In this document: piece by piece, positions 9,315 to 64,000 of the stretch
Numbering within the stretch: the first letter of the stretch is position 1
Layout of the letters: each line of letters opens with the position of its first letter
Source: Pocillopora verrucosa
Taxonomy: Eukaryota > Cnidaria > Anthozoa > Scleractinia > Pocilloporidae
NCBI RefSeq assembly: GCF_036669915.1
Contig: NC_089313.1
Location: 3,423,585-3,487,584 of the forward strand
Length of the DNA: 64,000 nt
Direction: 5' to 3'
The notes under the pieces: model-generated
What the model was told of the DNA's origin: nothing
What the model saw: only the letters and a program-made list of their open reading frames with translations
Database searches by the model: none
Position numbers and translations under genes: made by a program

Positions 9315-10593
9315 CTGTAAAGATCAATAATTCAAGAAGGGAAATAGTGTGATTCAGTCACACTGTCCTAGAATTTCTTGAAAAAGTTGAAAGTTTCATT
9401 CAAAAGAGATACAGACAATTGTTCAGTGGAGGAAAACATACTCGTTTTTATAACCTAGATGTGATTTTTATTATTTACATTTCACAATTAGTTATCTACT
9501 CTAGTAAAATGACCTCAAGGCGTTATTTTGAAAATTGTTTTGTTATTGTTAACTCCACTAGTACGATTTAGTCTTTGACTTTACCTCTAAGGACTTGGAA
9601 AATCATCAGCTGTGGAAACTTTTCCGATAAACTTTCGATTTATACTGACCCAAGTAGGTTGACATTTAAGTTACCGTAAACTCTCAAAAGTTTATCGACT
9701 CCCGAGCTTGAGGAAATAATTCGTGCGTGATACAACGTCTAAATAAGCTTTTTTTTTTCCACCTGCAATTATTGTAAGGATTTGAGGATTAAGGACGTTT
9801 CGAAACGATTAACTTCTAACCGACAGTCTGTGGTGACCACGTGCATCTGCCCTCCATAATCTTAAAAGCTAGCGGTTCCAAAAGTCTCATGAAATGTTAT
9901 AAAATCTCATGTTTTTTGCGAAAGAAACTGAGAAAGTGACCAGCCAGAAATTACACTTGCATTCGTCTAACGAAGCGAAGAGAAGTCAAGAAACAATTAT
10001 TGTTATATTATATCTTCTATGATAAGTTCTTCCTTAAATAATTAATAAAGAAAGGAATTTTTCATTTATACTTCCAATTTGCACCACCCATTCTCAAAAG
10101 CTTGCTTTTTTCGTGTACTTGTGAAAATTTAATTCCATAGAGTGTAAACAAACAAACCCAGAAGTTACGCACTGAAAAGCAAATACCGAAGTAATCATTC
10201 TTAACGCTCGATTCTGTTCATCCGTTAGGACGGACGAGGTAGAGTCTGTAGTTAACAGGGCAAGCTATTTCATCAATAGACAGCCAAAGCTGATTGCAAT
10301 GGAATGAGAAAAATTTATAAACCTTCTTGGTTCACTGGCTACCTTTCTCTGAACATGACGTATTGGTTTGTTGGCCTCAATAACGAAAGTAAGGAAATTA
10401 AAAAGGAAATAGGAAAAAGGAAGGAAAAGAATTCAATACAATTCATAATAAACAAGAAGTCAGTTACGTGTCCTATTCTGTGTAACACATTCACTTTCTT
10501 TTTTTTGCTCAAGCTAAAAATATGCCACTGGCCATGGAAATCTCAGAAGAGTAAAATGCTATCTGAGTTTACTAATGACAAAATGTTCATGTG

Positions 10594-13500
10594 TTATACT
10601 ATTGTTTCAGTATTTTTATTCTTTCCTTTCAGATCAAGCATATTATTAAAAAATGAGCGTTCTTTTGGTCTTGAGTATTCAGGAGACAAACCGTTCGCGG
10701 CACCTTTAAATTCCTCTTTTATTTTTTGTAGATCAGACGTTATGTCTTTTAGTCCTTCCTCCAAATCCAGGAAGTTTTGCATCATTGACATCTTCCTGCT
10801 GCTAGGAATCATTCCTAGAAGAAGGATTGTAGAGGACATTTAAAGAAATGAACCACTGAATTAATCCCTGAATATATTACTTTTGTCTTTCCGTTTGTCA
10901 GTACACAAATAGTCGATATTTGATTCGGTCATTAATCGTTTGAATGAATGACTATTTTCTCACTGACAAACGGACTGACATAATTACTTATTATTTGACT
11001 GTCAGACCTTCCAATAAGTATTGAACTATTTCATGTAACAAAGGTTTGCACATTTCTGATTAAAATCTGAGGGACGTGCTAACCGACTAACTAACTGGTT
11101 GATTGGATAACTGACCGACAGACTGACTAACTGACTACCTGACTGACTGGCTGCCTGACTGACTGACTGCCTGATTAACTAACTGACAGACTGACCAACT
11201 GAATGACGAGCGACTGTCTCATTGCCTTTGATTGCCATCTGAATTTAAAAATATGGAATCACACCATTCCACGATTTATACTAATTAAGATAGAACAGTT
11301 TTCTTCAAAAGATATCTGTTTTAAATTTACTCTGCAGGAACCTATGGCGAATTAATTTAAGAAGCAGTTACCTTTTCTCTTCTTGTGTACCGTTGGCTTA
11401 CAGTTGATATAGACTTCCCAAAATTTGCTGATGATTATTAGGAAAGCAAGTATTCCCAATAAGGCAAATAGAATAAATTTGGTCATCTGTGAGCCAGTGG
11501 AGAATAACTCTTCCATTTCATCGGACAAATCAGCTGTCTACAAAGAAATAAATAGCTTTCAAACTGTTGATCGCATCGGAATAAATGCTAAACAAATAGA
11601 GAAGAATGGTGCGTGGTGAAATATATAAAATTCCCAAAAAACAATTAACTACCTGTAATTCGGCAGGGATAAGTTGCTCTTTGGCAGTTTTTTTTGCAAC
11701 TCCAACCAAATCCGCTGATAACTCTCTTAGGCTTTCCCCGCAAACCGAAAGCTCAGTTTTTCTAACCAATACTTCGTCATCAGAATCGTTCGTGTGATTC
11801 GGTGACCCCATTACGTTATGGCTCACGTGAGCCAGGTAATATTCCATTGGATAATCGATGTTACGAATCATTCGGATCTGCCTGTTTCGTTTTAAACCAG
11901 ATTTATCCAAAACGTGAAAGGCAGTGTTGCGATCCACCATTACTCTTCCAATTGTTCCTTGGCTAAGACTTTCTTGCATTTCATCCAGGTTGTTGAACTC
12001 TGTTAATGAAAAATTTATTTGATTAGTACGCCAACGCAAATTCTTAATGAGTAAAAAGAGAAAAAGCGGGGGAGAAATTTCTCCTCAGAGTTTTGATACA
12101 AAAATATACGAAATATGACTGAAATTAAAAGGTAATTTTTAAGCTTATTTCTTTACCTTCGTAGTCGTTCCTGAAGAACAATGGTCATGCAATGCGTTAT
12201 GCAAGAACATTGAAATAACCTGAAAAGAATTACTTACTGACAAAGTCTGCGTCCAGCTCCATAGCGACTATATGCGTTTCAGGATTCTTGTCGGACACAC
12301 CCACCTAACAAGTAAATTGGCGTCAGACAAACTTTTATATGCCAGTTGGGCCCTTATAGATAGCGCAAGCATAATTTTCGACCTAAATTGTTAAACAGGC
12401 ATAATTTTTGCTTGTATTTATGAAAGTAGCACTGCAAGGCTAATCAGGATGTTTTTTCTTATTTTGAAGGAAACATTATCAGAGTCATGACTTGTTTTGG
12501 TCTCCAAGACCGATTATTTTCAAATTCGGTCCGAGGTTCATGTCTATTTTCAGGTTTTCAATGTCTTGGAAGAAGAGGGCTACCGCAGTATAGAATCATT
12601 CGTTGTCTAGAGGACTAGGCACATCCATAGTAAAGATTGCATCGTTTATAGTTCCCAGGCAAAAAATGGCGCCAAAGAGAAACTTACATTTTGACTCGTC
12701 AAGTCACTGCTTCTTGTCTGGAATTCAATGCTAAATTTTGTTTTGTCAGAGTATTTTTTTCAAAATAAAGAAGATTTCATGCTTAATTGACGACAAATAT
12801 ATAATTTGGACCTCGTTTGTTTCTCTTTTTTTTTGTAAAGCACACTTAAATAAAAAGTAGCATAATTTTCAAAAACGAGCGTAATTTTGAGCACCATTTG
12901 AAAAATGATCGAGCCATATTACTGGTGTAATATGCTACTTTTACTAGCGCAATCTATAAAGGCTTAGTGCCAAATGATAAGTACTTTCCTCTTGCAAAGA
13001 ATATGAAAAGTCTGTACAACGAAAGTACATTTTAGTTGTAGTTCCAGAAAGACCCAGCCTAAATAATAGGAACAGTGAAGGCATTTTTGTTGAAAGGGCC
13101 AATAATATCCGAAGTTGTACAAAACCAGAGCAATTTTCCATTTCGACAATCAATTAAAATTGTTTAATGTTAATTTCATTCTTCCATACAGCTTGCTAAC
13201 TCGCACTCAGGTAGCTCATAATTCCTAGCCCAGCTGTTCAAAGTCTGAGTAGCGCTAATCCGGGTCTAATTTCATGCGGGTCTCTTTTATTCTTTCGAAT
13301 AACTTTCTCTATTTTTTTTCTAAGAGTATCTAATAAGTGCCGACAAAAAGAATTATACTGAATTTTCTTTTACAGCTTTCAGATCTTAAATAAGATTTCA
13401 CATTACTCCGGAATTATCTGAACCCTGCTTTTAATAACTCGGCCTTGTGACTTAAAGGTTTGAGTCACAAGGCCGAGTTGCATTTGAGTTGTTCCTGAGT

Positions 13501-16015
13501 TCGATGAATGAGGGTAGGATTTCATTAATTGGCAATATAACTTTTTCAGGGAAAAACCTTTCGAAGCTTGGGTTAAGATAAATTGAAAAATGTAGAGAAT
13601 GTAATTTGAAACAAAGAAAATAATTAACTAATATACCTCCTTACAATCTCACCCCTGAATCAAACCTTAAGGTCACGAGAATAAAAGAAATGATCACCAA
13701 ATAAAGAAGTTCTTGATTGTTAAAAAGACATTTTTTTCCAGCACCTTAAGAAATGTATAGAGAAAAGTATGGAGAAAGGGGCATAATGGTGTTTGGGTGC
13801 AAAGGGTTTTAGGTGTTCATGTTAGGGTTACTAACCTTTTTGCCACCAATGTCCCTACATCTCGTACCATTCAGGGAAGCTTGCATAGCATTTGTAAATA
13901 AGGCGGTGAACAGCGACAACATCATTGCTCCTATCAGGATCCACATTATACCAAATGCACGTCCACAGAGGGTTTTAGGCGTCTTATCACCGTACCTAGT
14001 GAGAAAAAGGAACCAAATATCTTTGCGCTTTGAGGATAGTGTAGAAAGTATAAAAATACTTAATGTATACCTAATTGACCACTTCCCCGATGAGGCTTTT
14101 CAGGATCAGTACAAATTAATGAATTTATAAATGAGAGAATGAATGAAAATCCCAACTGGAAGGAGGCTGAGCATTTGGCTACATACAGAGCGCAGCCGAG
14201 GAGTTGAACTCTTAAACTCGTGGCAACCGTAAACAAACCCGGTGAGTAGCGGAGGGTGGAGGGCCTAGACCTGGGACCTCCAGATTACAAATGCAGCACT
14301 CAACCACTAGCCCACACTGCCTCCCTCCTGTACCATAATAAATACCCTGCCCCATCGATAATGATCACCATCAACTAAATTGAAACTAATCAGAGTATGT
14401 GCGTTTAAGCTAAGAATTATGACTCCATCTAAATTTGACGAATCTCATTCCCCTTCCCGCCCTCTTCTCCTTACACTATCCACTATGTCAAAAAAAACAA
14501 AAACAAAAAACAAAAATAAAACCTGAAACATAGTTTTAAGATATGCAATGGAAAATTATTTCTCTTCTATTTGCTATTCATTTTGGTTAATAAGCTGTGA
14601 AGAACTTTGAACGAGAGGACCCCGATACCACGTAACAACTAGTAATTTGTAAGAATGGAAGCCAATTCAAGAATGGAACCCTGGTAGAGATTTTGATAAA
14701 CCCAAAGCATGTGTTAACTTCGACAAAAAAATGGGTTTTACAATATTGCCTATCTTTGATCGTATTCAAAGGGCGCAGTGAAAAAAAGATCCCACTGATA
14801 CCCAAATCTAAATCAACTTACCCTACTGTTGTAAGTGATACCACTGCCCACCAAAAGCCTTCTGGTGATCCTATCGTGAACGAGGGTGAAAACTGAGCCG
14901 CGTTTGAACGGTGTTCCTGTTATGAAAATTGGTATAATTGTTTAATAAATTAATACTATATTAAAAAACTAATATTAAGGTGACGTTTAGTGTGGAGTAA
15001 ATAAAATTGATTAGAAAACACTTCAAGCTTACTTAAGGCCTTGCTACAACGCGCAAAGTTTGCAGCAGTTTTACTGTATCTGAAATTGTGGCATCTTGGA
15101 ATAAAATGTTCTTATTTGATAGTTTGAGTCATTGCAACGGTCTTTTTTCACCTACAAACAAACAAACATTATTTGTAGCTTCATGACTTGTAGGGCATTT
15201 TAGTTTGGCTTTTTATTTCTGTGAGGTCATAAGGTGTGCCTAACTAACCGTTTACTCAAAAATGGTGGCGTCGATTCCTACTCAAACTATTTTCATGCTA
15301 AAGTCGTAACAAATAAGTTTGAATATAACCTTAAGTAGGACTAAAGAGCTTAGAGGCTTAGTATAGATTGACGATGATAAGCCTTAACTCTTACCAAGAG
15401 CCAAATAATCACTCCAGATATCCCTGACAGTAACATGATAGAAGCCAATATCGGCCATTGTGACGTAATAGAAGTCAGTAACTGTTCCTGTGACTCTGCT
15501 TTGCACTGCTTTAAGTTCACAATCATTGAACACCCGGATGATACAAATGCCCGGATGAGTGTCACACTGTCTAGACCCGTAAGTTTTTGTTTTGCATCCG
15601 ATAGAATTGGAAAACCAAAATCAACCGACCCATTTTTAATCAACTTCACCATCTCGTCTTGATTTTGAACAAATACTGGTACCATTTTGCAAGCTATAGG
15701 GTGTTTTTCTTCTCTACCAAAGCAAGCCACGTCCACAAACCATGTTAGGGTTTGATTCATAAATCCTCCGTTAATACTTTGGTTCATAATGTAAGGAGGA
15801 AAATCTAGCAAGGCAAATTTGAATTTGCATTTTGTTTCTTTATCTTGTTCCTGACGAAGTTGACGCGTTTGGCGAACTTGACGATGTTGCCTGATTTGAC
15901 GGGCTTTGCGCACTAATTCCGATTGATCGATTGAATCAAGCTTTTGGCTGCTGACAAGCCATAAATCGCAGCAAACCATTAGACATAGGACCAATCTCAG
16001 AGTTGCAACATGCAT
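10594..16015 (-). CDS. gene B: ionotropic glutamate receptor-like channel with K+ filter (558 aa)
   Basis: Seven exons on the minus strand: 15395-16015, 14822-14916, 13836-13995, 12238-12304, 11653-11999, 11372-11537, 10594-10814. All have GT-AG borders and compatible phases, giving 1677 nt without internal stops. The start is the ATG at 16015, followed by a hydrophobic signal peptide (MHVATLRLVLCLMVCCD). Residues 39-56 are six consecutive Arg-Gln-x triplets. S1 lobe is about 63-185 (LLDFPPYIMNQ; TLIRAFVSSGCSMIV), M1 about 187-209, pore helix plus filter 217-242 (FWWAVVSLTTVGYGD), M2 about 253-275, S2 lobe 293-430 (GTIGRVMVDRNTAF), M3 about 450-471, cytoplasmic tail with helix FLDLEEGLKDITSDLQKIKEE. 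Architecture and filter predict a plasma-membrane ligand-gated K+ channel; the tetrameric state is inferred from the family. It is nearly identical to gene G. Cassette A lies immediately downstream. Exon borders are by eye. Confidence 0.85.
11085..11215. repeat. ACTG/CTGA-rich simple repeat in intron 6 of gene B
   Basis: Degenerate tandem run of GACTGACTG/CTGACTGCC units between exons 6 and 7. The same intron carries it in gene E (44695-44850, with a pure run of CAGA units) and in gene G (57890-58020). It was therefore present before the copies separated. Confidence 0.8.
12535..12665 (-). other. coding-like conserved segment in intron 3 of gene B (disabled)
   Basis: On the minus strand this matches an open segment in gene E (46095-46320) and gene G (59290-59480), with residues such as VPSPLDNE and FFQDIENLKIDM. 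Here the frame is cut by a TGA after LDNE. It is not part of the channel reading frame, and I do not recognise it. Confidence 0.4.
13436..13479. other. perfect 17-bp inverted repeat in intron 3 of gene B
   Basis: Arms 13436-13452 and 13463-13479 are exact reverse complements (AACTCGGCCTTGTGACT) with a 10-base loop. The gene G counterpart near 60248-60292 has two mismatches. The function is unknown; it could be a small palindromic insertion. Confidence 0.7.
14150..14335 (-). repeat. tRNA-derived SINE-like element in intron 2 of gene B
   Basis: Read on the minus strand, it starts with a tRNA-like head (GGGCTAGTGGTTGAGTGCTG, box A-like), followed by a box B-like stretch (GGTCCCAGGTCTAGGCCC). 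The same insertion is in intron 2 of genes E (about 47300-47495) and G (about 60950-61145), so it predates these duplications. Confidence 0.6.
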
Positions 16016-17617
16016 CGTTAACACCGCCAAGATATGATATGGTTAGAAACCTCCCCTGAGGCTACTAGACTTCAAGTTGTGTTCAGATCTATCCAAAAAA
16101 AACAAATAAACAAAAAAACCACAGATACAAAAGTCAGAATAATATGTTATCTGTTTGCAAGCTTGTTGTTTTATACTGCATGGGTGCAATGCAAGACCAG
16201 ATCTCAATATGACTTCCATTACATTTACATGAGAACATTCACGACGAAGACATCGTGCACTTGAAAAGAATGGAACGAAAATATGATTTTGACCTTCTCA
16301 AAGGACTCGAAGAAGTTTTTTATGGACAAAAAGTTCTGGAGTTCTCATTGAGGTAGCGATATTCTCTCCTGGCTATAGCCAGCTACCTTCAATGAACGCT
16401 TTTTTTGTCTCAATTTCCGAAAACCCCCCATTACGATGTATCTATTACCACACAGCGTGCCGTTATCTGAGTTAGTGTCTTACAGAATTTACACCAACAA
16501 GTGTAAGTGTAAGTGCGGGGTAGTATAATCAAAGTTACTAATTAAAAGCTGACACTTAAGCCAAAAACAGACAAGGCGGCTACAAACATACTGACAAATT
16601 TTGATTCCCTTCCATCAAGAAGTTCGAAAGATGGACTCGTTATGAATTTTGAATTGCGCTTGGCGGTTGGCAATATCTGTTTTTTGTCAGGGTCTGTGTC
16701 ATCAAGAAGGCTTTTAGAAAAATACTTTACGTCTTCAGTTTAAAAGTAGATCCTTTTTCCCAAACTGACAAGTGGTGAAAAAGAAAACTTTACTGTGAAT
16801 CTTCAGACCAACAAAATTTGTAATTGTGGCAGATGCAGTTTAAGGGCTTGATTATCAAAATTTTGGGCTAGAAAATAATAATTTTAAAAAGAATCCTTTA
16901 TTAGCTCTTTTTATCTGAGATCTTTTGATAAAGTATGGTTTTTCTTCGACTCCGCTTTTGTGTGTCGAAGAACATAACGGCAATTTTGGCACATTAATTT
17001 GTGTTCTACAAAATCTGCAAGGATGGCTATGCCAGGATTATAAATAAATCCTCATTGTGAACAAAAACACCGCGTCAATGTAATTATTTTTCTAACACTA
17101 CAGAATATTTTGAGTCCTGGACTGTACGCCAGATTGAGTGAATGTTATTATACCGTTATCTGTGGGGGAGAGAGTAGAGGCGGACTCTAAACACAATTGA
17201 TAAAGTCTGGCGAAGGGCTGCATCGAAATTTGAAAAGACGAACGCGTTTCGATGTTTGATTAAGAAAATTGGGAAAATAAACTTTTAATGAAAGATATTC
17301 AAAAGGGAATCGATAAACATAGTGCAGTATGATAAATAATCGTTATGGGAAATATTCAAAGCCAGGCAAATAAATGTGCTTTCAGCTCGCGTTTGCAAAG
17401 CCAAGAAATTATTGAACTATCACTACTTCTACTTCTTCTTATGCTTAAATTCTGTTACATAACAGGATCTCATTGGCAATTCAAAATAAGTCATAAAAAT
17501 TCTGAATTTAGAACAGGTTTTCGTTAATTTTAGGAGAGCCCATTTAAAAAAACTCCAGATAGCAATATCAACAAAAATATTGGAAATTAGGTTGCCAACT
17601 TCTGTAAGAATAAAAAG
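16016..17617. other. upstream region of gene B with two conserved coding-like islands
   Basis: This region is shared with 49206-50860 and 62812-64000. On the minus strand, 16568-16740 reads as protein-like sequence (SLLDDTDPDKKQ, SPSFELLDGRESKFVSMF), and 16900-17000 has a second island (GVEEKPYFIKRS type in the gene E copy). Against the 49.8 kb copy, 16590 lacks about 25 bases between GTCT repeats, so the frame is altered. I cannot assign either island; they may be remnants of a gene between the 5' fragment and gene B. The promoter of gene B should lie here, but I see no clear TATA box. Confidence 0.4.
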
Positions 17618-17773
17618 CGTTCGGCGAATTTGACGATGTTGCCTGACATCACGGGCCTTGGGCACTAATTCCGATGAATCAATTGAATCAATTCGGGGCT
17701 TTTGGCTGTTAGCAGGCCGTAAATAGGAACAAAAGAGGAGACATAGTGCTAGTCTTATGGTTGCAATATGCAT
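17429..17773 (-). pseudogene. orphan 5' fragment of channel exon 1 (copy b5)
   Basis: From ATG 17773 the minus strand encodes the family signal peptide and basic linker (MHIATIRLALCLLFCS; KARDVRQHRQIRRT) up to about 17618. It then departs from the S1 domain and continues as unrelated hydrophobic sequence to a stop at 17429. S1, pore and later exons do not follow. A sister fragment is at 50861-51106. It could be an internally deleted exon 1: the hydrophobic stretch VDIAIWSFF resembles M1 weakly. Confidence 0.65.
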
Positions 17774-33872: not shown

Positions 33873-36800
33873 TTATTGCAGCAGTGTTTCATGAGGTGCA
33901 TCACTTTCCTGGATTAAGAGAGCTTTAGCAAAGTCTTTTTTAATCTTCTGCAAGTCGTTGGATAATTCTTTGAGTCTATTTTCAAAACCCTGAAAATTCT
34001 CCACCACGAATTTCTTCCTGTTAAAGTGGCCTGGATGATCTTCCTCGCTTCCTTGGTCACACTTGTGCATATCTGAAGAATTAAAGAAATGGATCTGTCA
34101 ATACCTAATTTAGCAAAAAATAAATTGCATTTGGGAACGGTCAATATCTGTCACACAGTTGGGGCTAGAAGACGGGGAAGGAGTGCCTTCGGAGGATTTG
34201 GGTTGTATCACAATTTACCTGATCCTCTATTTAGCTCTGTTGAATTCCAATGATCGCCCTTTATAGGGACGACTGGTCTTTCCCTCCCTTCCCCCTGAAA
34301 AGCACGCATCTCCTTCTCCCCCCTCCCTCCCGCCACAAAATCCTCTGACCTGCCCCCTAAAAAATGACAACCTTTGATGTTGGTAGAACAAGGACAAATT
34401 GAATCCAAATATTTCCACACGGCTTAAACTTACCTTTCGTCTTTAGAATCGCGAGATTACAAGAATTTAAGCCCTCCCAAAACACCCCAATGATGACAAG
34501 TCCGAGGAATATCCCAAGAAGACTAAATAAGATAAACCGGGTTATTTCTGAGCCACTTGAGAATAAACCATCCATTTGATCAAATAAGGCAGCCGTCTAA
34601 AAAGAAAAAAAAACATTTAAGAGGGATAGATTCAACCACTTAGAATTATTTAAAGAGGAAGGGTAGACTTTGTTTTCCCACAGGTATGTTACTTTTCTCA
34701 TTTTCCTAGTTCTGGATTATACAAATTTTCATGAATTCATCATCAGAGGGTTAGAGATACCTAAACTGACCTTCTAATATTTTTCAGGCCAGTTAAAGCC
34801 GTAAGGCGACAAAAAACAACCTTTGTGCGGTCGTGCATCAAAAACCTGACGTGAGTATCAACAATTACTCTTGATCACTTTAGTTGAAAAGTGTTGTAGA
34901 AGACTACCTGCAGTTCTGCCGGTATCAGGGCACCTGAGGCCAATTTACTTTCTCCGCGCAATATTGTGGAAAACTTCTTTAATGCTGGTCCACATTCCAC
35001 CACTTTTTTTCTTTTGACAATTTCTGGATCGGTGTCGTTTGTAACGTTCACTGGTCCTGTGTATACGTGCACCAAGTAATAATCCATCGGATAATCGATA
35101 TTGCGAATCATTCGGATCTGCCTGTTCATTTTCAGTCCGGATTTATCGAGGAAGTAAAATGCAGTGTTTCGATCGACAAGGACTCTTCCGATGGTTCCTT
35201 CGCTGAGTTTTTCTTGCATCTCTTGCAGGCTTCTAAACTCTGTAATATCAGATATTTGTGGATCAGTCTAGTCACAACGGAGGTCACTTAAAAAAGGTTA
35301 AATGTTTTTACAATAATGCATTCATGGAAAACGAACCATAGAGGTTTTTTTCAGTTGGTAGTTTGTTAGAAGGGGTGTCACTGTACTGTATTTTTTGTAA
35401 GGTGTGTCTTCGTGATGTGGGAATGCTTTCACGCCTAAGCGAAGTCAACCCCCTCCCCCTTCTCGTGGCTCTGTGATCGTGTACGTTTGTAGTAGAATGG
35501 GAAGTCATACTGGCGTGTGCTCCCAGTACGAATTGATGTTACCGAATCAGGTAAATGCAGAACTATCCTCGAGTCCTCCAGTGGGACTGGAATCAGGAGC
35601 ACATCCCTAATTTTCGTTAATCCAGTATGACATCGTCACGTTAATTGGACGAATGAAGACAGATGCATTTGAAAACTTTATTTGTAAACGGAATGTTGGC
35701 AATAGATATAACATCAGCGAAAATCGTTACTTACCAATTATCTTTGCGTCGTACTGCTTTGCCACAATTTTCGTATCAGTATTTTTGATGAACACGCCAA
35801 CCTAAGGTAAATCCCACTACATTAGAACAGCTTTATCTTCTCTTGCGCATGTATTGGGTGTGGTCATCCTTTTTTCGTAACCTTTCCCCCCTCCAGCGCA
35901 CGCGACTACATCTTTTAGGCCTTTCACTGTGGCAAGGACGCACTTTGTAAGTCCTGAATCAGATTACTTAGATGGCAATAGTCAATAATTGATAGGTCTC
36001 AAGGAATGATGCTTATATAATGTTGTAAATCAACAATTAAAATCGCCCATGGAAAAACTTAATAGGGCCTGGTAGAGACTTGTACATTTGTCGACAGATA
36101 AATGCCCGATAAAACCTACAAAATTTGTTTTTCTTGTCAAGTACAAATTATCTGTCATCTTGGAATCTCCACATATTTTTAGGTACACTTACAATTTGCA
36201 GGCAATTAGTAAGTATTCAGTTAATAAGATTCTAGAAAGGTTGTGGAGTGATTCTGTCTGCGAAGGGGGCATTACTGGTGATAGATTCTACGAAGAAAGT
36301 TATGGAGGCTATCGGAACGAGTCTGACAGCTCAGACCATGATGCTACACACTCAGGGGTGGCCGCAGCAAGATGTTTCGTATTTCTTTCTTTTTTTTTTG
36401 TCTTGTTTTTTATATCTGAGTTTGTGTACAGACTGCAAGCAGTCTCCACTTTTCGGAGAGGTCCGTCGCACGAGTCAAAAAAAATATGAGTGAACAAAAG
36501 AACACAAATGGACGATAGTGTGGCGCGCGGAGATGTGCAGATGAGGCACGCTGCGGCGCGCCAATATCAATTTTTTCCACGGTTACTTTTGTGCTTTTTA
36601 TTTTTGTGTTTTTGATTGGTGCGACTGACTTCACCAAAAAGAAGGGACCACTCTTATCCTTGTCCATGTAAGGTTAGCATCAACCCTAAAGGCCATGATT
36701 TAACAGATTATCATCAATCCATAGAAATATTAAAATGAGTTGATAAGCCAGGTTTATGGAAATAACACAGACAACGCTGTCAACTTCGTATTTTTTACTT

Positions 36801-44799: not shown

Positions 44800-47700
44800 T
44801 GATTGACTGACTAGCTAACTAAATAACTGACAGACTGACCAACTGAAGGACAAGTGACTGTCTCACTGCCTTTGATTGCCAGCTGAATTTAAAAAATATA
44901 GAATCGCACCAATACCACGATTTATACTAATTAAGATAGTACAGTTTTCTTAAAGCTATCTGTTTTATATTTACTCTGCAGGAACCTAAGGTAAATTAAT
45001 TTAGAGGCAGTTACCTTTTCTCTTCTTGCGTACCGTTGGCTTACAGTTGGTGTAGACTTCCCATAGTTTGCCGATGACTAATAGGAAGGCAAATATTCCC
45101 AATAAGGCAAATAAAATAAATTTGGTCATTTGTGAGCCAGTGGAGAATAACCCTTCCATTTCATCGGACAAATCCGCTGTCTACAAGATATAAATAATTT
45201 TCAAACTGTTGATTGCATCAGAATAAATGTTAGACATAACGAGAAGAATGGCACATGGTGAAATATATAAAATTCACAACAAAACAATTAACTACCTGTA
45301 ATTCGGCAGGGATAAGTTGCTCTTTGGCAGTGTCTTTTGCAACTGCAACCACATCCGCTGATAACTCTTTCAGGCTTTCCCCGCAAGCCGAAAGCTGAGT
45401 TTTTCTCTCAAATACTTCGTCATCAAAATTGTTCGTGTCATTCGGTGACCCCATTACGTAATGGCTCACGTGAGCCAGGTAATATTCCATTGGATAATCA
45501 ATGTTACGAATCATTCGGATCTGCCTGTTTCGTTTTAAACCAGATTTATCCAGAAAGTGAAAGGCAGTATTGCGATCCACCATTACTCTTCCAATTGTTC
45601 CTCGGCTAAGATTTTTTTGCATTTCGTCCAGGTTTTTGAACTCTGTTAATCAAAAATTTATTTGATTAGTTAGCCAACGCAAGTTCTTACATGAATAAAA
45701 GGAGAAAAAGAGGCGGAAAAATTTCTCCTGAGAGTTTTCATACAAAAATATACGAAATATGACTGTTTGGAATTAAAAACTGATTATTTTTAAGGTTATT
45801 TCTTTACTTTCGCAATCGTCCTTGAAGAAAAACGGTCATGCAACACATTATACAAGGACATTGAAATAAACCTGAAAAGAATGACTTACGGACAAAGTCT
45901 GCATCCAGCTCCTTAGCAACTATATGCGTTTCAGGATTCTTGTTGGACACACCCACCTAACAAGTAAATTGGGGTCAGACAAATTTTTATACGCCAGGTG
46001 GGCCCTTATAGATTGCGCTGGCCAAATTTTTTACCTAAATTGTTAAAACAAGCACAATTATTGAAAGTAGTACTGCAAGCCTAATGAGGATATTTTTTCC
46101 TATTTTGAAGGAAACATTATCAGAGTCTTGACTTGTTTGGTCTCCAAGATCGATTATTTTCAAATTCGGTCCATGGATCATGTCTATTTTCAGGTTTTCA
46201 ATGTCTTGGAAGAAGAGGGCTATCGCAGTATGGAATCGTTCGTTGTCTAGAGGACTGGGCACACACGTAGTAAAGATTGCATCGTTTATAATTCCCGCTT
46301 TCACAGGCAACAAAATGGCGGCGAAGAGAAACTTACATTTTGACACGACAAGTCACTGCTTCTTGTCTTGAATCCAATGGTTAATTATGTTTTGTCGGAG
46401 CAAATATGTATCTCAAAATGAAGAGGATTTCATGCTTAATTGACAACAAATACATAATTTGGACTTCGTTCGTTTCTTTTTTTTTTCTGGTAAAGCACAC
46501 TTAAAGAAAAAGTAGTATAATTTTCAAAAAACTGATCGAGCAATGCCACTAGCATAACATGCTACTTTTACCGGCACAATCTATTAAGGCTTAGTGGAAA
46601 GAATATGAAAAGTCTGTACAACGAAATTAAACTTAAGTTGTAGTTCCGGAAAGACCCACCCTATATAACAATAGGAACAGGGAAGGCATTGTTGTTGAAA
46701 GGGCCAATAATAGCCGAAGTTGTACAAACCAAAGCAATTTTCCATTTCGAAAATCAATTAAAATTGTTTAATGTGAATTTCATTCTTCACCTCTGACTCA
46801 GGTAGCTCATGATTCTTCGTTACTCCAGCGATCATAAACACATCAGTAATTCAGGGCCCAGTTGTTCGAAGTCTGACTAGTGCTAATCCGGGGTAAATTT
46901 CATACGTGTTCTTCATACCTTTGTTCTAACTTGAAAGGGGCATTATGATGTTTGGGTGCAAAGGGTTTTAGGTATTCATGTTAGGGTTACTAACCTTTTT
47001 GCCACCAATGTCCCTACATCTCGTACCATCCAGGGAAGCTTGCATAGCATTTGTAAATAAGGCGGTGAACAGCGACAACATTATTGCTCCTATCAGGATC
47101 CACATTATACCAAATGCACGTCCACAGAGGGTTTTAGGCGTCTTATCACCGTACCTAATGAGAAAAAAGGAACCAAATATCTTTGCGCTTTGAGGATAGT
47201 GTCGTAAGTATAAAAATTTTTAATGTCTACTTGATTGACCATTTCCCCGATGGGGCTTTTCAGGATCAGTACAAATGACTGAATTTGTAAATGAGAGAAT
47301 GAATGAAAATCCCAATTGTCAGCAAGCTGAACATTTGGCTCTATACAAAGCGCAGCCAAGGAGTTGAACTCTGAAACTCGTGGCAACCGTAAACAAATCC
47401 GGTGAGTAGCGGAGGGTGGAGGGCTTAGACCTGGGACCTCCAGATTACAAATGCAGCACTCCAACCACTAGCCCACACTGCCTCCCTCCTGTAGCGTAAT
47501 AAATACTCTGCCCCATCGATAATGATCATAATCAACTAAATTGAAACTGCTCAGAGTATGTGCGTTTTAGCTAAAAATTATGACTTTATCTAAATTTGAC
47601 GAATCTCATTCCCCTTCCCACCCTCCTTTCCTCACACTATCCACTATGTCAAAAAAAAAAAAAAACAGAAACATAGTTTTAAGATATGCAATGAAAAAAA

Positions 47701-50860: not shown

Positions 50861-51106
50861 TTAGGAGAATCTATTAAGAAAAAAATTCCAGATAACAATA
50901 TCAACAAAAATATAAGAAATTAGGCTGCTATCTTCTGTAAGGATAAAAAGCGTTTGGCGAATTTGACGATGTTGCCTGATATCACGGGCTTTACGCACTA
51001 ATTCCGATTGATCGATTGAATCAATTTGGGGCTTTTGGCTGTTAGCAGGCAGTAAATCGGAACAAAAGAAGAGACATGGCACCAGTCTTATGGTTGCAAC
51101 ATGCAT
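50861..51106 (-). pseudogene. orphan 5' fragment of channel exon 1 (copy e5)
   Basis: ATG 51106 opens MHVATIRLVPCLFFCSD and a linker (KARDIRQHRQIRQT), then unrelated hydrophobic sequence (LISYIFVDIVIWNFFL) to a stop at 50861. Sister of 17429-17773. S1, pore and S2 are absent. The hydrophobic end weakly resembles M1, so a deletion inside exon 1 is possible. Confidence 0.65.
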
Positions 51107-53870: not shown

Positions 53871-54827
53871 TGATAATTTACTTATTTGAGTGCTCCGCAA
53901 TCGAGTCTAATGAACATGTCATTTTAATACAGTTTAATTCCACTATTGTCCACACGTACACCTGTGTTCAATGTGGACAAATGGCTCGTTTTCGTTGCGT
54001 TTGTTTGCGTCAAAGAACGTTTCACAGAATCAATTTAGTCAAAAATTATGATTGCAAATAATACATATGAGACACTTTGATCTTTTAAAATTTTGGCGAG
54101 CGAGTGCTCAGTATTTTCTTAACTAAAATTATGGCTGCCGTCTTTGATTTTAATGGCAGCGGAAGATTTGGGAGAGAAAGAAATTTGTACCTAGGGGGGT
54201 GGTCGACGGTCCAAAATAAGGAGAGCGGCGGGGGAGGGGGAGTAAAGATTACGCCTGCCAGAAGTCTTTTGCAAAACTCCGTTCGCCCACGAACAGAGTG
54301 TCTGATTGGTGCAGTTAAGCTCCAGCTGTCAATCACATGTCAAATGTGTCATTTGAGCGTCATTCTGACATTTCGCTCTCGCGGGGGGAATCGGGAAGAT
54401 ATCGAGCTCTGATTGTGAAGTTATTAGGTTCGATTCAGTCAAAAGTTCCCGAGTCTGCTCTTGCAATACAGTCTCAATTCATGGTTAGTTTTTAACAATC
54501 TGTTTAGAGAGTCAATTCAAATGATTCTGTTAGCTTTGCCTTATCGTTAATTTAATAGCTACTGAGCTGAGTTTAACAGCCGTTGAAAGGAACTGAACAA
54601 TAGCCTTTGGCTCCTTATGGGCTTGAGCAGTGCTCTCACGATAGCCAGATCGTGATCTAAAGATGGGTGTTACATGTGTTTGATGATAAATTCTAAGTGT
54701 GTTATACTAATGACAAATGATAAGTTTCTATGGACTAAAAATGAGGTTCTGATGCACGTCTTGTTGGAAATAAATATCATAACGGTGGAATAAAAACGCT
54801 CTAAGTCTTAAATTTTATTTAATATAA

Positions 54828-55734
54828 TTATGGTCGTAGACAAAGGATGGTGGCCATAATGATGTGCAGTTGACAGATGCGACTTATCATCGATTTTTTT
54901 TTTAATTCCTTGAGGTCGGGGTTTCTCGGCCAGGGATGGTCATGTTCATCTCTTCTTTCGTTCGCTGCAATTGAATCTTTTGGTCTCTGCTCCAAACTGT
55001 TGACATATTGCATAACATCAGCCACGTGCGTGTCCTGGAGATTCTCAGACACATCATTACGGTGTGGAAAATCTACAAATGTACTTATACTTCCAATGTT
55101 TTTGCTAGTCACAAATTTATCTAAATCATGCATAAATGATCGTAACTTTAAACGGGCTGCCAAAGAAGTTACTTCATGATCACAATTCTTTCAAAGAAAA
55201 AACAAAAGAATTGAGGGTCAAAAATTAAACGGATTGAAAATGAACTTGAGGATATTGATATTAAATTCTTCAAAATTCAAAAATCGCGGTCTTTTCAATT
55301 TCCGCTTCCTGCCACTAACAAGCAAAAAATTTTGAAACCTATTTTCACAATGAACAATGATTTTTCTTGTCTCTGAAACTTGCCCATTTGCTCATGAAGA
55401 AATAAGAGATTCCCATCGAAAGACCTAGGATTGCTGCAAATATAAAATTGCTCAATTCAGTCGCAAGATTTAGTAACTTACAATTTAGAGGAAGCGTTTG
55501 CTTTATTTGGGTAAAAAAAAAAGTGATATTACTCAGTATCAGCCTATGTATAGATGATAATCATACCTTCTGTTACTGCGTGCACCTGGCTAGGTAACAC
55601 TTGATGTAGACTTGACATAAGATACCGAGAAACACTAGCCCGAGAAATACCACCAGACGATAAATCAACATCCACAGGGTCATTTTCGAGCCGGTTGAAA
55701 AAAACCCTTCCATTTCATCGGACAGGTTTGCGCT
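54828..55734 (-). pseudogene. cassette A': orphan exons 6 and 7 downstream of gene G
   Basis: Exon 6 at 55567-55734 and exon 7 at 54828-55156, sisters of cassette A. Exon 6 has lost one base against 9146-9314 (GCACCTGGC instead of GCACCATGGC), so the frame ends in TAA shortly after M3. Exon 7 has an extra T in the run near 54895, so the frame passes the stop used in cassette A and ends at 54828. Splice sites look intact. Without exons 1-5 it is a fragment, or at most an alternative 3' end for gene G. Confidence 0.65.
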
Positions 55735-57403
55735 CTGTAAAGATCAATAATTCAAGAAGGGAAATAGTGTGATTCAGTCACTCTGTCCTAGAATTTCTTG
55801 AAAAAGTTGAAAGTTTCATTCAAAAGAGATACAGACAATTGTTCAGTGGAGGAAAACATACTAGATGTGATTTTTATTATTTACATTTCACAATTGGTTA
55901 TCTACTCTAGTAAAATGACCTCAAGGCGTTATTTTGAAAATTGTTTTGTTATTGTTAACTCCCATGGAAAATCATCAGCTGTGGAAACTTTTCCGAAAAA
56001 CTTTCGATTTATACTGACCCAAGTAGGTTGACATTTAAGTTACCGTAAACTCCCAAAAGTTTATCGACTCCCGAGCTTGAGGAAATAATTCGCTGTGGAC
56101 ACTATATGATACAACGTCTAAATAGGCTTTTTTTCTTTCACCTGCAATTATAACTATACATCGATCAGTATATTTCTTGATCGCTAAAAGTAAAGATTCC
56201 ATTTATTATTGTACAAGTTGTAAACATCCTTAAGCTTTTACTTGAATCATGTATAACGCTTCTAGATACAGTCTTACCTGAATTTAAAAATTTATTTATA
56301 GATACTCAAAAACAAAACTAGTGACTACGGTGCTAGATTCAAGTGCAGAAGGGAATGCATTTCTCAGAGAGACATCACCTGGATTGGAGTTTATTACATG
56401 TAAATGAATAACGGTCCTTGACTGGCCGTTATTCTCCTATAATCAGTGTTTCTTATGCATGCTCTTTAGGCACACAATACAATATCTAAAAACTTTGATT
56501 AAATTGTAAGGATTTGAGGATTAAGGACGTTTCGAAACGATTAACTTTTAACCGACAGTCTGTGGTGACCACGTGCATCTGCCCTCCATAATCTTAAAAG
56601 CTAGCGGTTCCAAAAGTCTCCTGAAATGTTATAAAATCTCATGCTTTTTGCGAAAGAAACTGAGAAAGTGACCAGCCAGAAATTACAGTTGCATTCGTCT
56701 AACGAAGTGAAAAGAAGTCAAGAAACAATTATTGTTATATTATATCTTTTATGATAAGTTCTTCCTTAAATAATTAATAAAGAGAGGAATTCTTCATTTA
56801 TACTTCCAATTTGCACCACTCATTCTCAAAAGCTTGCTTAAATAATAATTAATAAAGAGAGGAATTCTTCATTTATACTTCCAATTTGCACCACTCATTC
56901 TCAAAAGCTTGCTTTTTTCTAGTACTTGTGAAAATTTAATTCCATAGAGTGTAAACAAACAAACCCAGAAGTTACGCACTGAAAAGCAAATACCGAAGTA
57001 ATCACTCTTAACGCACAATTCTGTTCATCCGTTAAGACGGACGAAGTAGAGTCTGTAGTTAATAGTGCGAGCTATTTCATCAATAGACAGCCAAAGCTGA
57101 TTGCAATGGAATGAGAAAATTTATAAACCTTCTTGGTTCACTCGCTACCTTTCTCTGAACATGACGTATTGGTTTGTTGGCCTCAATAACGAAAGTAAGG
57201 AAATTAAAAAGGAAATAGGAAAAAAGAAGAAAAAAAAATTCAATACAATTCGTAATAAACAAGAAGTCAGTTACGTGTCCTACTCTGTGTGACACATTCA
57301 CTTTCTTTTTTTTTTTGCTCAAGCTAAAAATATGCCACTGGCCATGGAAATCTCAGAAGAGTAAAATGCTATCTGAGTTTACTAATGACAAACTGTTTAT
57401 GTG

Positions 57404-60400
57404 TTATACTATTGTTTCAATATTTTTATTCTTTCCTTTCAGATCAAGCATATTATTAAAAAATGAGCGTTCTTTTGGTCTTGAGTATTCAGGAGACAAA
57501 CCGTTCGCGGCACCTTCAAATTCCTCTTTTATTTTTTGTAGATCAGACGTTATGTCTTTTAGTCCTTCCTCCAAATCCAGGAAGTTTTGCATCATTGACA
57601 TCTTCCTGCTGCTAGGAATCATTCCTAGAAGAAGGATTGTAGAGGACATTTAAAGAAATGAACCACTGAATTAATCCCTGAATATATTACTTTTGTCTTT
57701 CCGTTTGTCAGTACACAAATAGTCGATATTTGATTCGGTCATTAATCGTTTGAATGAATGACTATTTTCTCATTGACAAACGGACTGACATAATTACTTA
57801 TTATTTGACTGACAGACCTTCCAATAAGTATTTGAACTATTTCATGTAACGAAGGTTTTCACATTTCTGATTAAAATCCGAGGGACGTGCTAACCGACTA
57901 ACTAACTGGCTGATTGGATGACTGACCGACAGACTGACTAACTGACTACCTGACTGACTGGCTGCCTGACTGACTGACTGCCTGACTAACTAACAGACAG
58001 ACTGACCAACTGAAAGACGAGTGACTGTCTCATTGCCTTTGATTGCCATCTGAATTTAAAAATATAGAATCACACCAATACCACGATTGATACTAATTAA
58101 GATAGAACAGTTTTCTTCAAAAGGTATCTGTTTTATATTTACTCTGCAGGAACCTATGATGAATTAATTTTAGAAGCAGTTACCTTTTCTCTTCTTGTGT
58201 ACCGTTGGCTTACAGTTGAGGTAGACTTCCCAAAATTTGCTGATGATTATTAGGAAAGCAAGTATTCCCAATAAGGCTAATAGAATAAATTTGGTCATTT
58301 GTGAGCCAGTGGAGAATAACCCTTCCATTTCATCGGACAAATCCGCTGTCTACAAAGAAATAAATAGCTTTCAAACTGTTGATTGCATCGGAATAAATGC
58401 TAAACATAAAGAGAAGAATGGTGCGTGGTGAAATATATAAAATTCACAAAAAACAATTAACTACCTGTAATTCGGCAGGGATAAGTTGGTTTCTGGCAAT
58501 TTCTTTTGCAACTGCAACCAAATCCGCTGATAACTCTTTCAGGCTTTCCCCGCAAACCGAAAGCTTAGTTTTTCTAGCCAATACTTCGTCATCAGAATCG
58601 TTCGTGTCATTCGGTGACGCCATTACGTCATGGCTCACGTGAGCCAGGTAATATTCCATTGGATAATCGATGTTACGAATCATTCGGATCTGCCTGTTTC
58701 GTTTTAAACCAGATTTATCCAAAAAGTGAAATGCAGTATTGCGATCCACCATTACTCTTCCAATTGTTCCTTGGCTAAGACTTTCTTGCATTTCATTTAG
58801 GTTGTTGAACTCTGTTAATTCAAAATTCATTTGATTAGTTCTCCAACGCAAATTCTTAATGAGTATAATGAGAAAAAGCGGGGGAGAAATTTCTCCTTAG
58901 AGTTTTGATACAAAAATATACGAAATATGACTGAAATTAAAAGGTAATTTTCAAGCTTATTTTTTTACTTTAGTAGTCGTTCCTGAAGAAAAATGGTCAT
59001 GCACGCACCATTCTTCTCTTCTCAACCTGAAAAAAATTACTTACTGACAAAGTCTGCATCCAGCTCCATAGCGACTATATGCGTTTCAGGATTCTTGTTG
59101 GACACACCCACCTAACAAGTAAATTGGAGTCAGACAATTTTTTATACGCCAGTTGGGCCCTTATAGATTGCTCTGGCCAAACTTGTTACCTAAATTTTTA
59201 AAACAAGTACAATTTTTGCTTTTTATTATGAAAGTAGCGTTGCAAGCCTAATGAGGATATTTGTTCTTATTTTGAAGGAAACTATACCAGAGCCTTGACT
59301 TGTCTTGGTCTCCAAGATCGATTTTTTTCGAATTCGGTCCATGGTTCATGTCTATTTTCAGGTTTTCAATGCATTGGAAGAAGAGGGTTACCGTAGTATT
59401 GAATCGTTCGTTGTCTAGAGGACTGGGCACATCCGTAGTAAAGATTGCATCGTTTATAGTTCCCGCTTTCACAGGCAAAAAATGGCGCCAAAGAGAAACT
59501 TACATTTTGACTCGTCAAGTCACTGCTTCTCGTCTGGAATCCAATGTTAATTTTTGTTTTGTCAGAGTATGTTTTTCAAAATAAAGAAGATTTCATGCTT
59601 AATTGACGCCAAATATATAATTTGGACTTCGTTTGTTTCTTTTTTTTGTAAACTTAAATAAAAAGTAGCATAATTTTCAAAACGAGCGTAATTTTGTGCA
59701 CCATTTGAAAAATGATCGAGCAATACCACTGGTATAATATGCTACTTTTACTAGCACAATCTATAAAGGCTTAGTGCCAAATGATAAGTACTTTCCTCTT
59801 GCAAAAAGTAAAGTACTGAAAAGTCTGTACAACGAAAGTACATTTTAGTTGTAGTTCCAGAAAGACCCAGCCTAAATAATAGGAACAGTGAAGGCATTTT
59901 TATTGAAAGGGCCAATAATATCCGAAGTTGTACAAAACCAGAGCAATTTTCCATTTCGACAATCAATTAAAATTGTTTAATGTTAATTTCATTCGTCCAT
60001 ATGGCTTGCTAACTCGGACTCAGGTAGCTCATAATTCCTAGCCCAGCTGTTCGAAGTCTGAGTAGCGCTAATCCGGGTCTAATTTTTATGCGGGTGTCTT
60101 TTATTCTTTCGAATAATTTTCTCTATTTTTTTCTAAGAGTATCTAATAAGTGCCGACAAAAAGAATTATACTGAATTTTCTTTTACAGCTTTCAGATCTT
60201 AAATAAGATTTCACATTACTCCTGAATTATCTGAAACCTGCTTTTAATAACTCGGCCTTGTGACTTAAAGGTTTCAGTCACAGGGCCGAGCTGCATTTGA
60301 GTTGTTCCTGAGTTCGATGGATGAGGGTAGGATTTCATTAATTGGCAATATAACTTTTTCAGGGAAAAACCTTTCGAAGCTTGGGTTAAGATAAATTGAA

Positions 60401-62811
60401 AAATGTAGAGAATGTAATTTGAAACAAAGAAAATAATTAACTAATATACCTCCTTACAATATCACCCCTCAATCAAACATTAAGGTCACGAGAATAAAAG
60501 AAATTATCACCAAATAAAGAAGCTCTGGATTGTTAAAAAGACATTTTTTCCAGCACCTTAAGAAATGTATAGAGAAAAGTATGGAGAAAGGGGCATAATG
60601 ATGTTTGGGTGCAAAGGGTTTTAGGTGTTCATGTTAGGGTTACTAACCTTTTTGCCACCAATGTCCCTACATCTCGTACCATTCAGGGAAGCTTGCATAG
60701 CATTTGTAAATAAGGCGGTGAACAGCGACAACATCATTGCTCCTATCAGGATCCACATTATACCAAATGCACGTCCACAGAGGGTTTTAGGCGTCTTATC
60801 ACCGTACCTAGTGAGAAAAAGGAACCAAATATCTTTGCGCTTTGAGGATAGTGTATTAAGTATAAAAATACTTAATGTATACCTAATTGACCACTACCCC
60901 GATGAGGCTTTTCAGGATCAGTACAAATTAATGAATTTATAAATGAGAGAATGAATGAAAATCCCAACTGGAAAGAGGCTGAGCATTTGCCTACATACAG
61001 AGCGCAGCCGAGGAGTTGAACTCTTAAACTCGTGGCAACCGTAAACAAACCCGGTGAGTAGCGGAGGGTGGAGGGCCTAGACCTGGGACCTCCAGATTAC
61101 AAATGCAGCACTCCAACCACTAGCCCACACTGCCTCCCTCCTGTACCATAATAAATACCCTGCCCCATCGATAATGATCACCATCAACTAAATTGAAACT
61201 AATCAGAGTATGTGTGTTTAAGCTAAGAATTATGACTCCATCTAAATTTGACGAATCTCATTCCCCTTCCCGCCCTCCTCTCCTTACACTATCCACTATG
61301 TCAAAAAAAACAAAAAACCTGAAACATAGTTTTAAGATATGCAATGGAAAATTATTTCTCTTCTATTTGCTATTCATTTTGGTTAATAAGCTGTGAAGAA
61401 CTTTGAACGAGAGGACCCCGATACCACGTAACAACTAGTAATTTGTAAGAATGGAAGCCAATTCAAGAATGGAACCCTGGTAGAGATTTTGATAAACCCA
61501 AAGCATGTGTTAACTTCGACAAAAAAATGGGTTTTACAATATTGCCTATCTTTGATCGTATTCAAAGGGCGCAGTGAAAAAAAGATCCCACTGATACCCA
61601 AATCTAAATCAACTTACCCTACTGTTGTAAGTGATACCACTGCCCACCAAAAGCCTTCTGGTGATCCTATCGTGAACGAGGGTGAAAACTGAGCCGCGTT
61701 TGAACGGTGTTCCTGTTATGAAAATTGGTATAATTGTTTAATAAATTAATACTATATTAAAAAACTAATATTAAGGTGACGTTTAGTGTGGAGTAAATAA
61801 AATTGATTAGAAAACACTTCAAGCTTACTTAAGGCCTTGCTACAACGCGCAAAGTTTGTAGCAGTTTTACTGTATCTGAAATTGTGGCATCTTGGAATAA
61901 AATGTTCTTATTTGATAGTTTGAGTCATTGCAACGGTCTTTTTTCACCTACAAACAAACAAACATTATTTGTAGCTTCATGACTTGTAGGGCATTTTAGT
62001 TTGGCTTTTTATTTCGGTGAGGTCATAAGGTGTGCCTAACTAACCGTTTACTCAAAAATGGTGCCGTCGATTCCTACTCAAACTATTTTCATGCTAAAGT
62101 CGTAACAAATAAGTTTGAATATAACCTTAAGTAGGACTAAAGAGCTTAGAGGCTTAGTATAGATTGACGATGATAAGCCTTAACTCTTACCAAGAGCCAA
62201 ATAATCACTCCAGATATCCCTGACAGTAACATGATAGAAGCCAATATCGGCCATTGTGACGTAATAGAAGTCAGTAACTGTTCCCGTGACTCTGCTTTGC
62301 ACTGCTTTAAGTTCACAATCATTGAACACCCGGATGATACAAATGCCCGGATAAGTGTCACACTGTCTAGACCCGTAAGTTTTTGTTTTGCATCCGATAG
62401 AATTGGAAAACCAAAATCAACCGACCCATTTTTAATCAACTTCACCATCTCGTCTTGATTTTGAACAAATACTGGTACCATTTTGCAAGCTATGGGGTCT
62501 TTTGCTTCTCTACCAAAGCAAGCCATGTCCACAAACCATGTTAGGGTTTGATTCATAAATCCTCCGTTAATACTTTGGTTCATAATGTAAGGAGGAAAAT
62601 CTAGCAAGGCAAATTTGAATTTGCATTTTGTTTCTTTATCTTGTTCCTGACGAAGTTGACGCGTTTGGCGAACTTGACGATGTTGCCTGATTTGACGGGC
62701 TTTGCGCACTAATTCCGATTGATCGATTGAATCAAGCTTTTGGCTGCTGACAAGCCATAAATCGCAGCAAACCATTAGACATAGGACCAATCTCAGAGTT
62801 GCAACATGCAT
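57404..62811 (-). CDS. gene G: ionotropic glutamate receptor-like channel with K+ filter (558 aa)
   Basis: Seven exons: 62191-62811, 61618-61712, 60648-60807, 59045-59111, 58465-58811, 58184-58349, 57404-57624. They total 1677 nt with no stop. ATG 62811 is chosen because an upstream in-frame TTG is not a likely start and the signal peptide begins here. Domain positions: signal peptide 1-24, RQx linker 39-56, S1 63-185, M1 187-209, pore helix and filter 217-242 with TVGYGD at 237-242, M2 253-275, S2 293-430 with Asp337 aligned to the acidic ligand residue of glutamate receptors, M3 450-471, tail helix 500-521. N-glycosylation sequons NQS, NQT and NGS lie in S1. Differs from gene B by few residues (for example MACFGREAKDPIA against VACFGREEKHPIA). 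Predicted ligand-gated K+ channel; ligand unknown. Confidence 0.87.
57890..58020. repeat. ACTG/CTGA-rich simple repeat in intron 6 of gene G
   Basis: Counterpart of 11085-11215, nearly the same unit order. Confidence 0.8.
59248..59480 (-). other. coding-like conserved segment in intron 3 of gene G (frameshifted)
   Basis: Keeps INDAIFTTDVPSPLDNERF and ENLKIDMNHGPN but goes out of frame after LGDQ compared with the gene E copy at 46095-46346. Confidence 0.4.
60950..61145 (-). repeat. tRNA-derived SINE-like element in intron 2 of gene G
   Basis: Same insertion as in genes B and E, minus orientation. Confidence 0.6.
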
Positions 62812-64000
62812 CGTTACCACCGCCAAGATATGATATGGTTAGAAACCTCCCCTGAGGCTACCAGACTTCAAGTTGTGTTCAGATCTAACCAAAAAAAACA
62901 AATAAACAAAAAAACCACAGATGCAAAAGTCAGAATAATATGTTATCTGTTTGCAAGCTTGTTGTTTTATACTGCATGGGTGCAATGCAAGACCATTCAC
63001 GAAGAAGACATCGTGCACTTGAAAAGAATGGAACGAAAATATGATTTTGACCTTCTCAAAGGACTCGAAGAAGTTTTTTATGGACAAAAAGTTCTGGAGT
63101 TCTCATTGAGGTAGCGATATTCTCTCCTGGCTATAGCCAGCTACCTTCAATGAACGCTTTTTTTGTCTCAATTTCCGAAAACCCCCCACTACGATGTATC
63201 TATTACCATACAGCGTGCCGTTATCTGAGTTAGTGTCTTACAGAATTTACACCAACAAGTGTAAGTGTAAGTGCGGAGTAGTATAATCAAAGTTACTAAT
63301 TAAAATCTGACACTTAAGCCAAAAACAGACAAGGCGGCTACAAACATACTGACAAATTTTGATTCCCTCCCATCAAGAAGTTCGTAAGATGGACACGTTA
63401 TGAATTTTGAATTGCGCTTGGCGGTTGGCAATAACTGTTTTTTGTCAGGGTCTGTGTCATCAAGAAGGCTTTAGAAAAATACTTTACGTCTTCATTTTAA
63501 AAGTAGATCCTTTTTCCCAAACTGACACGTGGTGAAAAAGAAAACTTTACTGTGAATCTTCAGACCAACGAAATTTGTAATTGTGGCAGATGCAGTTTAA
63601 GGGCTTGATTATCAAAATTTTGGGCTAGAAAATAATAATTTTAAAAAGAATCCTTCATTAGCTCTTTTTATATGAGATCTTTTGATAAAGTATGGTTTTT
63701 CTTCGACTCCGCTTTTGCGTGTCGAAGAACATAACGGCAATTTTGGCACATTAATTTGTGTTCTGCAAAATCTGCAAGGATGGCTATGCCAGGATTATAA
63801 ATAACTTCTCATTGTGAACAAAAACACCGCGTCAATGTAATTTTTTTTCTAACACTACAGAATATTTTGAGTCCTGGACTGTACGCCAGATTGAGCGAAA
63901 GTTATTATACCGTTATCTGTGGGGGAGAGAGGCGGACTCTAAACACAATTGATAAAGTCTGGCGAAGGGCTGCATCGAAATTTAAAAAGACGAACGCGTT
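62812..64000. other. upstream region of gene G
   Basis: Colinear with 16016-17260. The coding-like island at 63320-63490 has lost one base (GGCTTTAG against GGCTTTTAG), breaking its frame. The promoter of gene G should lie here; no clear core element seen. The 5' orphan fragment expected further upstream is outside the window. Confidence 0.45.

Follow-up and report, generated by a model that had tools for sequence, protein, structure and literature searches.

A 64,000-nucleotide window of the coral Pocillopora verrucosa, the whole stretch of DNA analyzed here, carries on its minus strand five paralogous genes, G1-G5, for channels that resemble ionotropic glutamate receptors (iGluRs) and have a K+ selectivity filter. 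The genes share one exon plan, are constrained between divergent copies and have relatives in many cnidarians, and their products have the predicted fold of an iGluR and a kinship of GluR0 type. With moderate confidence, the products are read as iGluR-family channels with a K+ pore that would be opened by a small extracellular ligand at S1/S2, and this ligand would more likely be an amine or another non-standard compound than a common L-amino acid.

Gene structure and the divided K+ filter

G5 (62811-57404, minus strand) comprises seven exons encoding 558 amino acids, with GT-AG introns joined in phase and exon entry phases of 0/0/2/0/1/0/1. It coincides exactly with the interval singled out by a first-pass annotation of this DNA (57404-62811), the ATG lying at 62811 and the final base of the stop codon at 57404. 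Exon 1 (62811-62191) encodes a signal peptide, S1 and M1. Exon 2 (61712-61618) encodes the pore helix and ends with TTVG, and exon 3 (60807-60648) supplies YGD, from 60806, and M2. S2 starts in exon 4 (59111-59045) and continues in exon 5 (58811-58465), followed by M3 in exon 6 (58349-58184) and by a cytoplasmic helix and the C-terminus in exon 7 (57624-57404). S1, the pore exon, the M2 exon and S2 are present in all five genes, and the kinds of exon and their order are common to G1-G5. This bears out the first-pass annotation, which had described five genes with an S1-M1-pore-M2-S2 layout, four of them with M3; G2 alone is without the M3 exon.

Because a phase-2 intron cuts the filter between the G of TTVG and the Y of YGD, the filter becomes visible only after splicing. 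TTVGYGD is then read in five of five window genes, as had been claimed. Consistently, Ion_trans_2 of Pfam matches the five proteins at 49.8-54.6 bits against a cut-off of 22.5. Judged from these residues, the pore would be K+ selective. The gate motif of iGluRs is SYTANLAAF. Its core is kept in M2 of the family as [F/Y]TA (F in 64, T in 81 and A in 72 of 83 family rows), and the rest of the motif is not kept. These rows belong to alignment A2, which consists of 100 of the 120 best rows from the first homology search and contains 17 bacterial-type rows, defined as those carrying SBP_bac_3, and 83 family rows, near-copies included.

The gene models are beyond chance because they agree with database proteins of P. 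verrucosa. G4, which was modeled before the databases were searched, agrees with P0001 at every residue (564/564). G3 is identical to P0011 (543/543) after the acceptor of its last exon was moved from 34018 to 34072 on the evidence of P0011; its other six exons were unchanged by the comparison. G2 is 97% identical to P0012 (LOC131780509) over 380 amino acids. The identity of G4 and G3 to coral proteins also confirms the cnidarian source that had been guessed from the letters. The relatives P0008, P0013 and P0014 encode the entire S1-pore-S2-M3 protein on contigs of no more than 3.1 kb, shorter than the 5.4 kb that G5 spans, which points to spliced RNA.

An iGluR plan around a K+ pore

In the predicted model the two-lobed S1/S2 domain is intact, and the ligand domain is split around the pore as in iGluRs. 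A membrane helix follows S2 (residues 449-478), and its exon is present in four of the five window genes. The predicted fold and the gene models together uphold the earlier description, in which a ligand domain of iGluR type is divided by a K+-channel pore and a membrane helix follows S2. The best fold match is the glutamate-bound core of GluR0. Against an animal AMPA/NMDA-type iGluR, Foldseek gives E 2e-12 over 463 columns, and 8p3u_D aligns over model residues 66-528. In a control without bacterial rows the two-lobed split fold is still found, with most AMPA rows ending near residue 428. No amino-terminal domain is found in the five window genes, in agreement with the first-pass annotation.

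Sequence kinship was scored on 42 bacterial-type K+-selective glutamate receptors, hand-picked from SBP_bac_3 rows of two homology searches and originally found by their likeness to the coral family. A 40-row profile gives 116-181 bits on them (median 151). The pore part alone gives 81.7-107.5 bits on 42/42, versus 66.7 bits for the best K+ channel of the PDB with the full profile. The S1/S2 part alone gives a median of 18.5 bits, beats every reversed or shuffled decoy in 39/42 and reaches E < 1e-3 in 10/42, with S2 contributing most. Because of these profile scores and the FTA core, the family looks like iGluR-lineage channels that carry a K+ pore, rather than like a Kv pore to which a new head was added. 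The likeness to GluR0-type bacterial receptors proposed earlier has support in kind from both the fold and the sequence.

Pfam and PDB sequence searches mainly detect the K+ pore, which would suit a Kv-type pore fused in cnidarians to an unrelated binding-protein domain, outside the iGluR lineage. However, such a fusion is very improbable given the pore scores above, the FTA gate, the split of S1/S2 at the iGluR place, the helix after S2 and a Lig_chan score above the curated cut-off in five of ten relatives. Kv/KcsA-type pores share with the family the pore helix and the TTVGYGD filter, but the family has an S1/S2 domain and an iGluR-like gate segment, and no voltage sensor is found in it. 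By analogy with its iGluR kin, its pore is expected to be inverted relative to Kv/KcsA. Animal AMPA/NMDA-type iGluRs (AKDF, NMDA, epsilon) share the overall S1-M1-P-M2-S2-M3(=M4) fold, but they have a Q/R/N loop where the family has the K+ filter, and the window genes are without an amino-terminal domain and the canonical Arg.

According to the accessible part of Ger et al. 2010, a glutamate site and a K+ filter occur together in bacteria alone, as far as its authors could determine (PMC2950845). In the parts available of PMC2950845, PMC12332018 and PMC12226733, the glutamate receptors described with a K+ filter are bacterial, apart from a single animal one, of a rotifer. Unlike GluR0 and the bacterial K+-selective receptors (Group 1 in the available text of PMC2950845), the coral family has an extra post-S2 membrane helix and a cytoplasmic helix, is animal and has genes split by introns. 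Bacterial-type proteins P0099, P0101, P0105, P0112, P0132 and others, about 700-750 amino acids long, combine PF04069 (OpuAC-type betaine-binding) with SBP_bac_3 and a K+ pore. AvGluR1 of Adineta vaga, compared by description only, likewise combines a K+ filter with the eukaryotic iGluR architecture in an animal receptor (PMC12332018, in excerpt). It answers alanine, glutamate, methionine and others (PMC12226733, in excerpt), whereas the coral family is without the Arg and is multigene. In the accessible text of a large metazoan survey (PMC6307864) there is no mention of potassium, selectivity filter, GYG, GluR0 or AvGluR1, and in that of a P. damicornis receptome (PMC9897584) none of potassium channel or ionotropic. 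No description of a cnidarian family of K+-filter glutamate-receptor-like channels was found in the literature searched, a scope with most subscription papers outside it.

The ligand site and proposed gating

One column of A2 holds an Arg that we take to be the residue gripping the alpha-carboxylate of the ligand. It is present in 17/17 bacterial-type rows, GluR0-type receptors differing here from the family, where it is present in 3/83 rows (P0047, P0071 and P0075); an Arg lies within two columns on either side in 10/83. The five window proteins are all without it. The Thr three positions before the Arg is found in 16/17 bacterial-type and 6/83 family rows, and the Asp of DFS in 17/17 and 3/83. 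In S2, 15/17 bacterial-type rows, 65/83 family rows and 19/19 filled coral-clade rows have the amine-binding Asp (D339), and 14/17 bacterial-type and 65/83 family rows have the Tyr of YG. R157, D339, Y366, Y370 and H374 are invariant in the filled coral-clade rows. From this alignment we infer that the carboxylate grip has been lost and the amine grip kept.

Because the Arg is missing in 80/83 family rows, an ordinary L-amino-acid agonist is doubtful, and the earlier suggestion of an amino-acid agonist is not supported. Since the amine-binding Asp is kept, an amine or other non-standard ligand is likelier than any of the common L-amino acids. Gating by glutamate or another common amino acid, as in the K+ channels GluR0 and AvGluR1, would agree with the glutamate-bound GluR0 core as best fold match and with the kept Asp and Tyr. 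However, the scarcity of the canonical Arg even within two columns, of the Thr and of the DFS Asp makes such gating rather unlikely. Insect ionotropic receptors (IRs), which are related to iGluRs, have often lost the glutamate-binding Arg and are without a K+ filter. The available part of an IR paper makes no mention of arginine (PMC2924276).

The loss of pocket residues, and an S1/S2 domain barely recognizable by sequence, would also be expected of a background K+ channel, constitutive or otherwise gated, in which S1/S2 is a relic serving assembly or trafficking. However, the ratio of non-synonymous to synonymous substitution rates (dN/dS) of S1 and S2 is 0.07-0.30 between divergent copies, where computable, the polar cleft-side candidates D339, Y370 and R157 are the same throughout the coral clade, and both lobes are intact in the predicted fold. 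A relic domain is accordingly unlikely.

The preferred reading is that of ligand-gated K+ channels of the iGluR family. By analogy, the channel would be tetrameric. Its parts would be the extracellular two-lobed S1/S2 domain; M1, the pore helix, TTVGYGD and M2 with the FTA gate; the post-S2 membrane helix; and the cytoplasmic helix. A small extracellular ligand would close the S1/S2 clamshell, and the closed clamshell would pull on M2 to open the K+-selective pore. As K+ leaves, the cell would be hyperpolarized or clamped.

Several points weigh against this reading. The hidden Markov model search of the spliced proteins proposed by the first-pass annotation turned out as foreseen for Ion_trans_2, well above its cut-off in all five, but not for Lig_chan, whose cut-off of 30.8 bits was just missed by all five (27.6-30.6 bits). 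The profile search of the PDB gives iGluR matches when A2 includes the bacterial rows and K+ pores when it does not. Furthermore, a displaced basic residue, for example R157, could rescue amino-acid gating.

The array, its evolution and its relatives

The other genes also lie on the minus strand. G1 (16015-10594; exons 16015-15395, 14916-14822, 13995-13836, 12304-12238, 11999-11653, 11537-11372 and 10814-10594) is complete, encodes 558 amino acids and has 535/558 residues in common with G5. G4 (49205-44201; exons 49205-48579, 48061-47967, 47154-46995, 45956-45890, 45642-45296, 45180-45015 and 44433-44201) and G3 (39160-33873; exons 39160-38546, 38067-37973, 36974-36815, 35801-35735, 35239-34908, 34596-34434 and 34072-33873) are complete, with 564 and 543 amino acids. 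G2 (29619-27274) is 3'-incomplete, with exons 1-5 only (29619-29113, 28788-28694, 28591-28432, 28235-28169 and 27626-27274). An M3 exon was looked for at its locus and none was found, and a remnant of the last exon (26632-26489) contains an in-frame stop. G2 was entered without its first Met in the protein comparisons, dN/dS, tree and coral-clade alignment. Minus-strand fragments resemble the 5' part of exon 1 (17618-17773 and 50951-51106, with 62% and 73% amino acid identity to G5) and exon 6, that of M3 (9177-9314 and 55597-55734).

In pairs with G2 or G3 (7/10 pairs), dN/dS is 0.13-0.21 at a synonymous divergence (dS) of 1.4-3.1, and these ratios are rough because dS is saturated. G1, G4 and G5 form three recent pairs, with dN/dS of 0.45-0.66, and of 0.77-0.89 in S2. 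At such values constraint is low, or change is relaxed or diversifying. G1 and G5, with a dS of 0.028, lie inside a segmental repeat of 96-97% identity (8017-17248 versus 54439-64000), which is either a recent segmental duplication or an uncollapsed haplotype. This repeat, the incomplete G2 and the fragments nearby are what a decaying or misassembled array without function would leave. However, four copies are intact, two equal database proteins on a 20-Mb sequence, selection is purifying, and relatives occur in 20 other species among the matches listed. Such an array is hardly credible, and a pseudogene array is rejected on the intact copies and the constraint.

P. verrucosa P0006 has, before exon 4, 256/294 residues in common with G4 and 171/294 with G3; from exon 4 onward the numbers are 127/248 and 223/248. 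It is a chimeric paralogue, which suggests exchange within the array, by unequal crossing-over or by gene conversion. A candidate exon in the intron that separates exon 3 from exon 4 (59248-59499 in G5, 46035-46352 in G4, minus strand) was rejected, as exon 3 joins exon 4 in phase without it and P0001 does not contain it. The stretch has similar open frames in both genes (NDAIFTT..PSPLDNERF), and the G4 copy ends membrane-like. It may be an unused exon, an alternative exon or a repeat. Repeat families at 1-2136, 18.5-22.0 kb and 51.5-53.9 kb, several hundred bases long, containing open frames and 60-91% identical, are probably mobile elements. The plus strand at 3194-6398 has a run of open frames of 224, 127, 161 and 463 amino acids; Pfam gave zero matches on seven further open reading frames of the window, this run among them.

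Three homology searches, each scoring 8000 candidates, gave 209, 168 and 140 rows. Among the best 120 of each, the organism-named eukaryotic rows belong to 21 species, all cnidarians; the named relatives among the matches listed come from stony corals, sea anemones, octocorals, a scyphozoan and hydrozoans. In a 61-row tree, 22 coral rows form one group (support 100 in the Shimodaira-Hasegawa-like approximate likelihood ratio test, SH-aLRT), adjoined by seven anemone and coral rows (91), and deeper forks are unsure. The tree covers neither animal iGluRs, plant glutamate-receptor-like proteins, Kv channels nor AvGluR1, and is silent on kinship with those. CUB and Ig domains stand in front of the K+-filter receptor-like protein in P0072 (Nematostella) and P0076 (Hydractinia). 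Because these two are sisters in the tree (support 99), the fusion probably took place before anthozoans and hydrozoans diverged. P0078 and its kin include at least 140 relatives at E <= 1e-10, hydrozoan-like ones among them, and many of them are single open frames of 430-530 amino acids on contigs of up to about 50 kb. This looks like a large intron-poor expansion.

A wider proposal is put forward tentatively. The family may be a large, undescribed group of cnidarian K+ channels that follow the iGluR plan and are gated directly by a ligand. Their ligand site would have been rebuilt, reading not L-amino acids but possibly an amine or environmental cue, and the channels, with CUB and Ig domains in front in some lineages, would give fast, chloride-free ionotropic inhibition. 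As a multigene family in many cnidarians, it makes K+-filter glutamate-receptor-like channels a regular part of the channel set of an animal phylum. It is also an example from nature of an iGluR ligand site with the Arg lost. Two questions can be approached directly through the family: whether there was ionotropic K+ inhibition in early nervous systems, and whether animal iGluRs had the K+ filter ancestrally.

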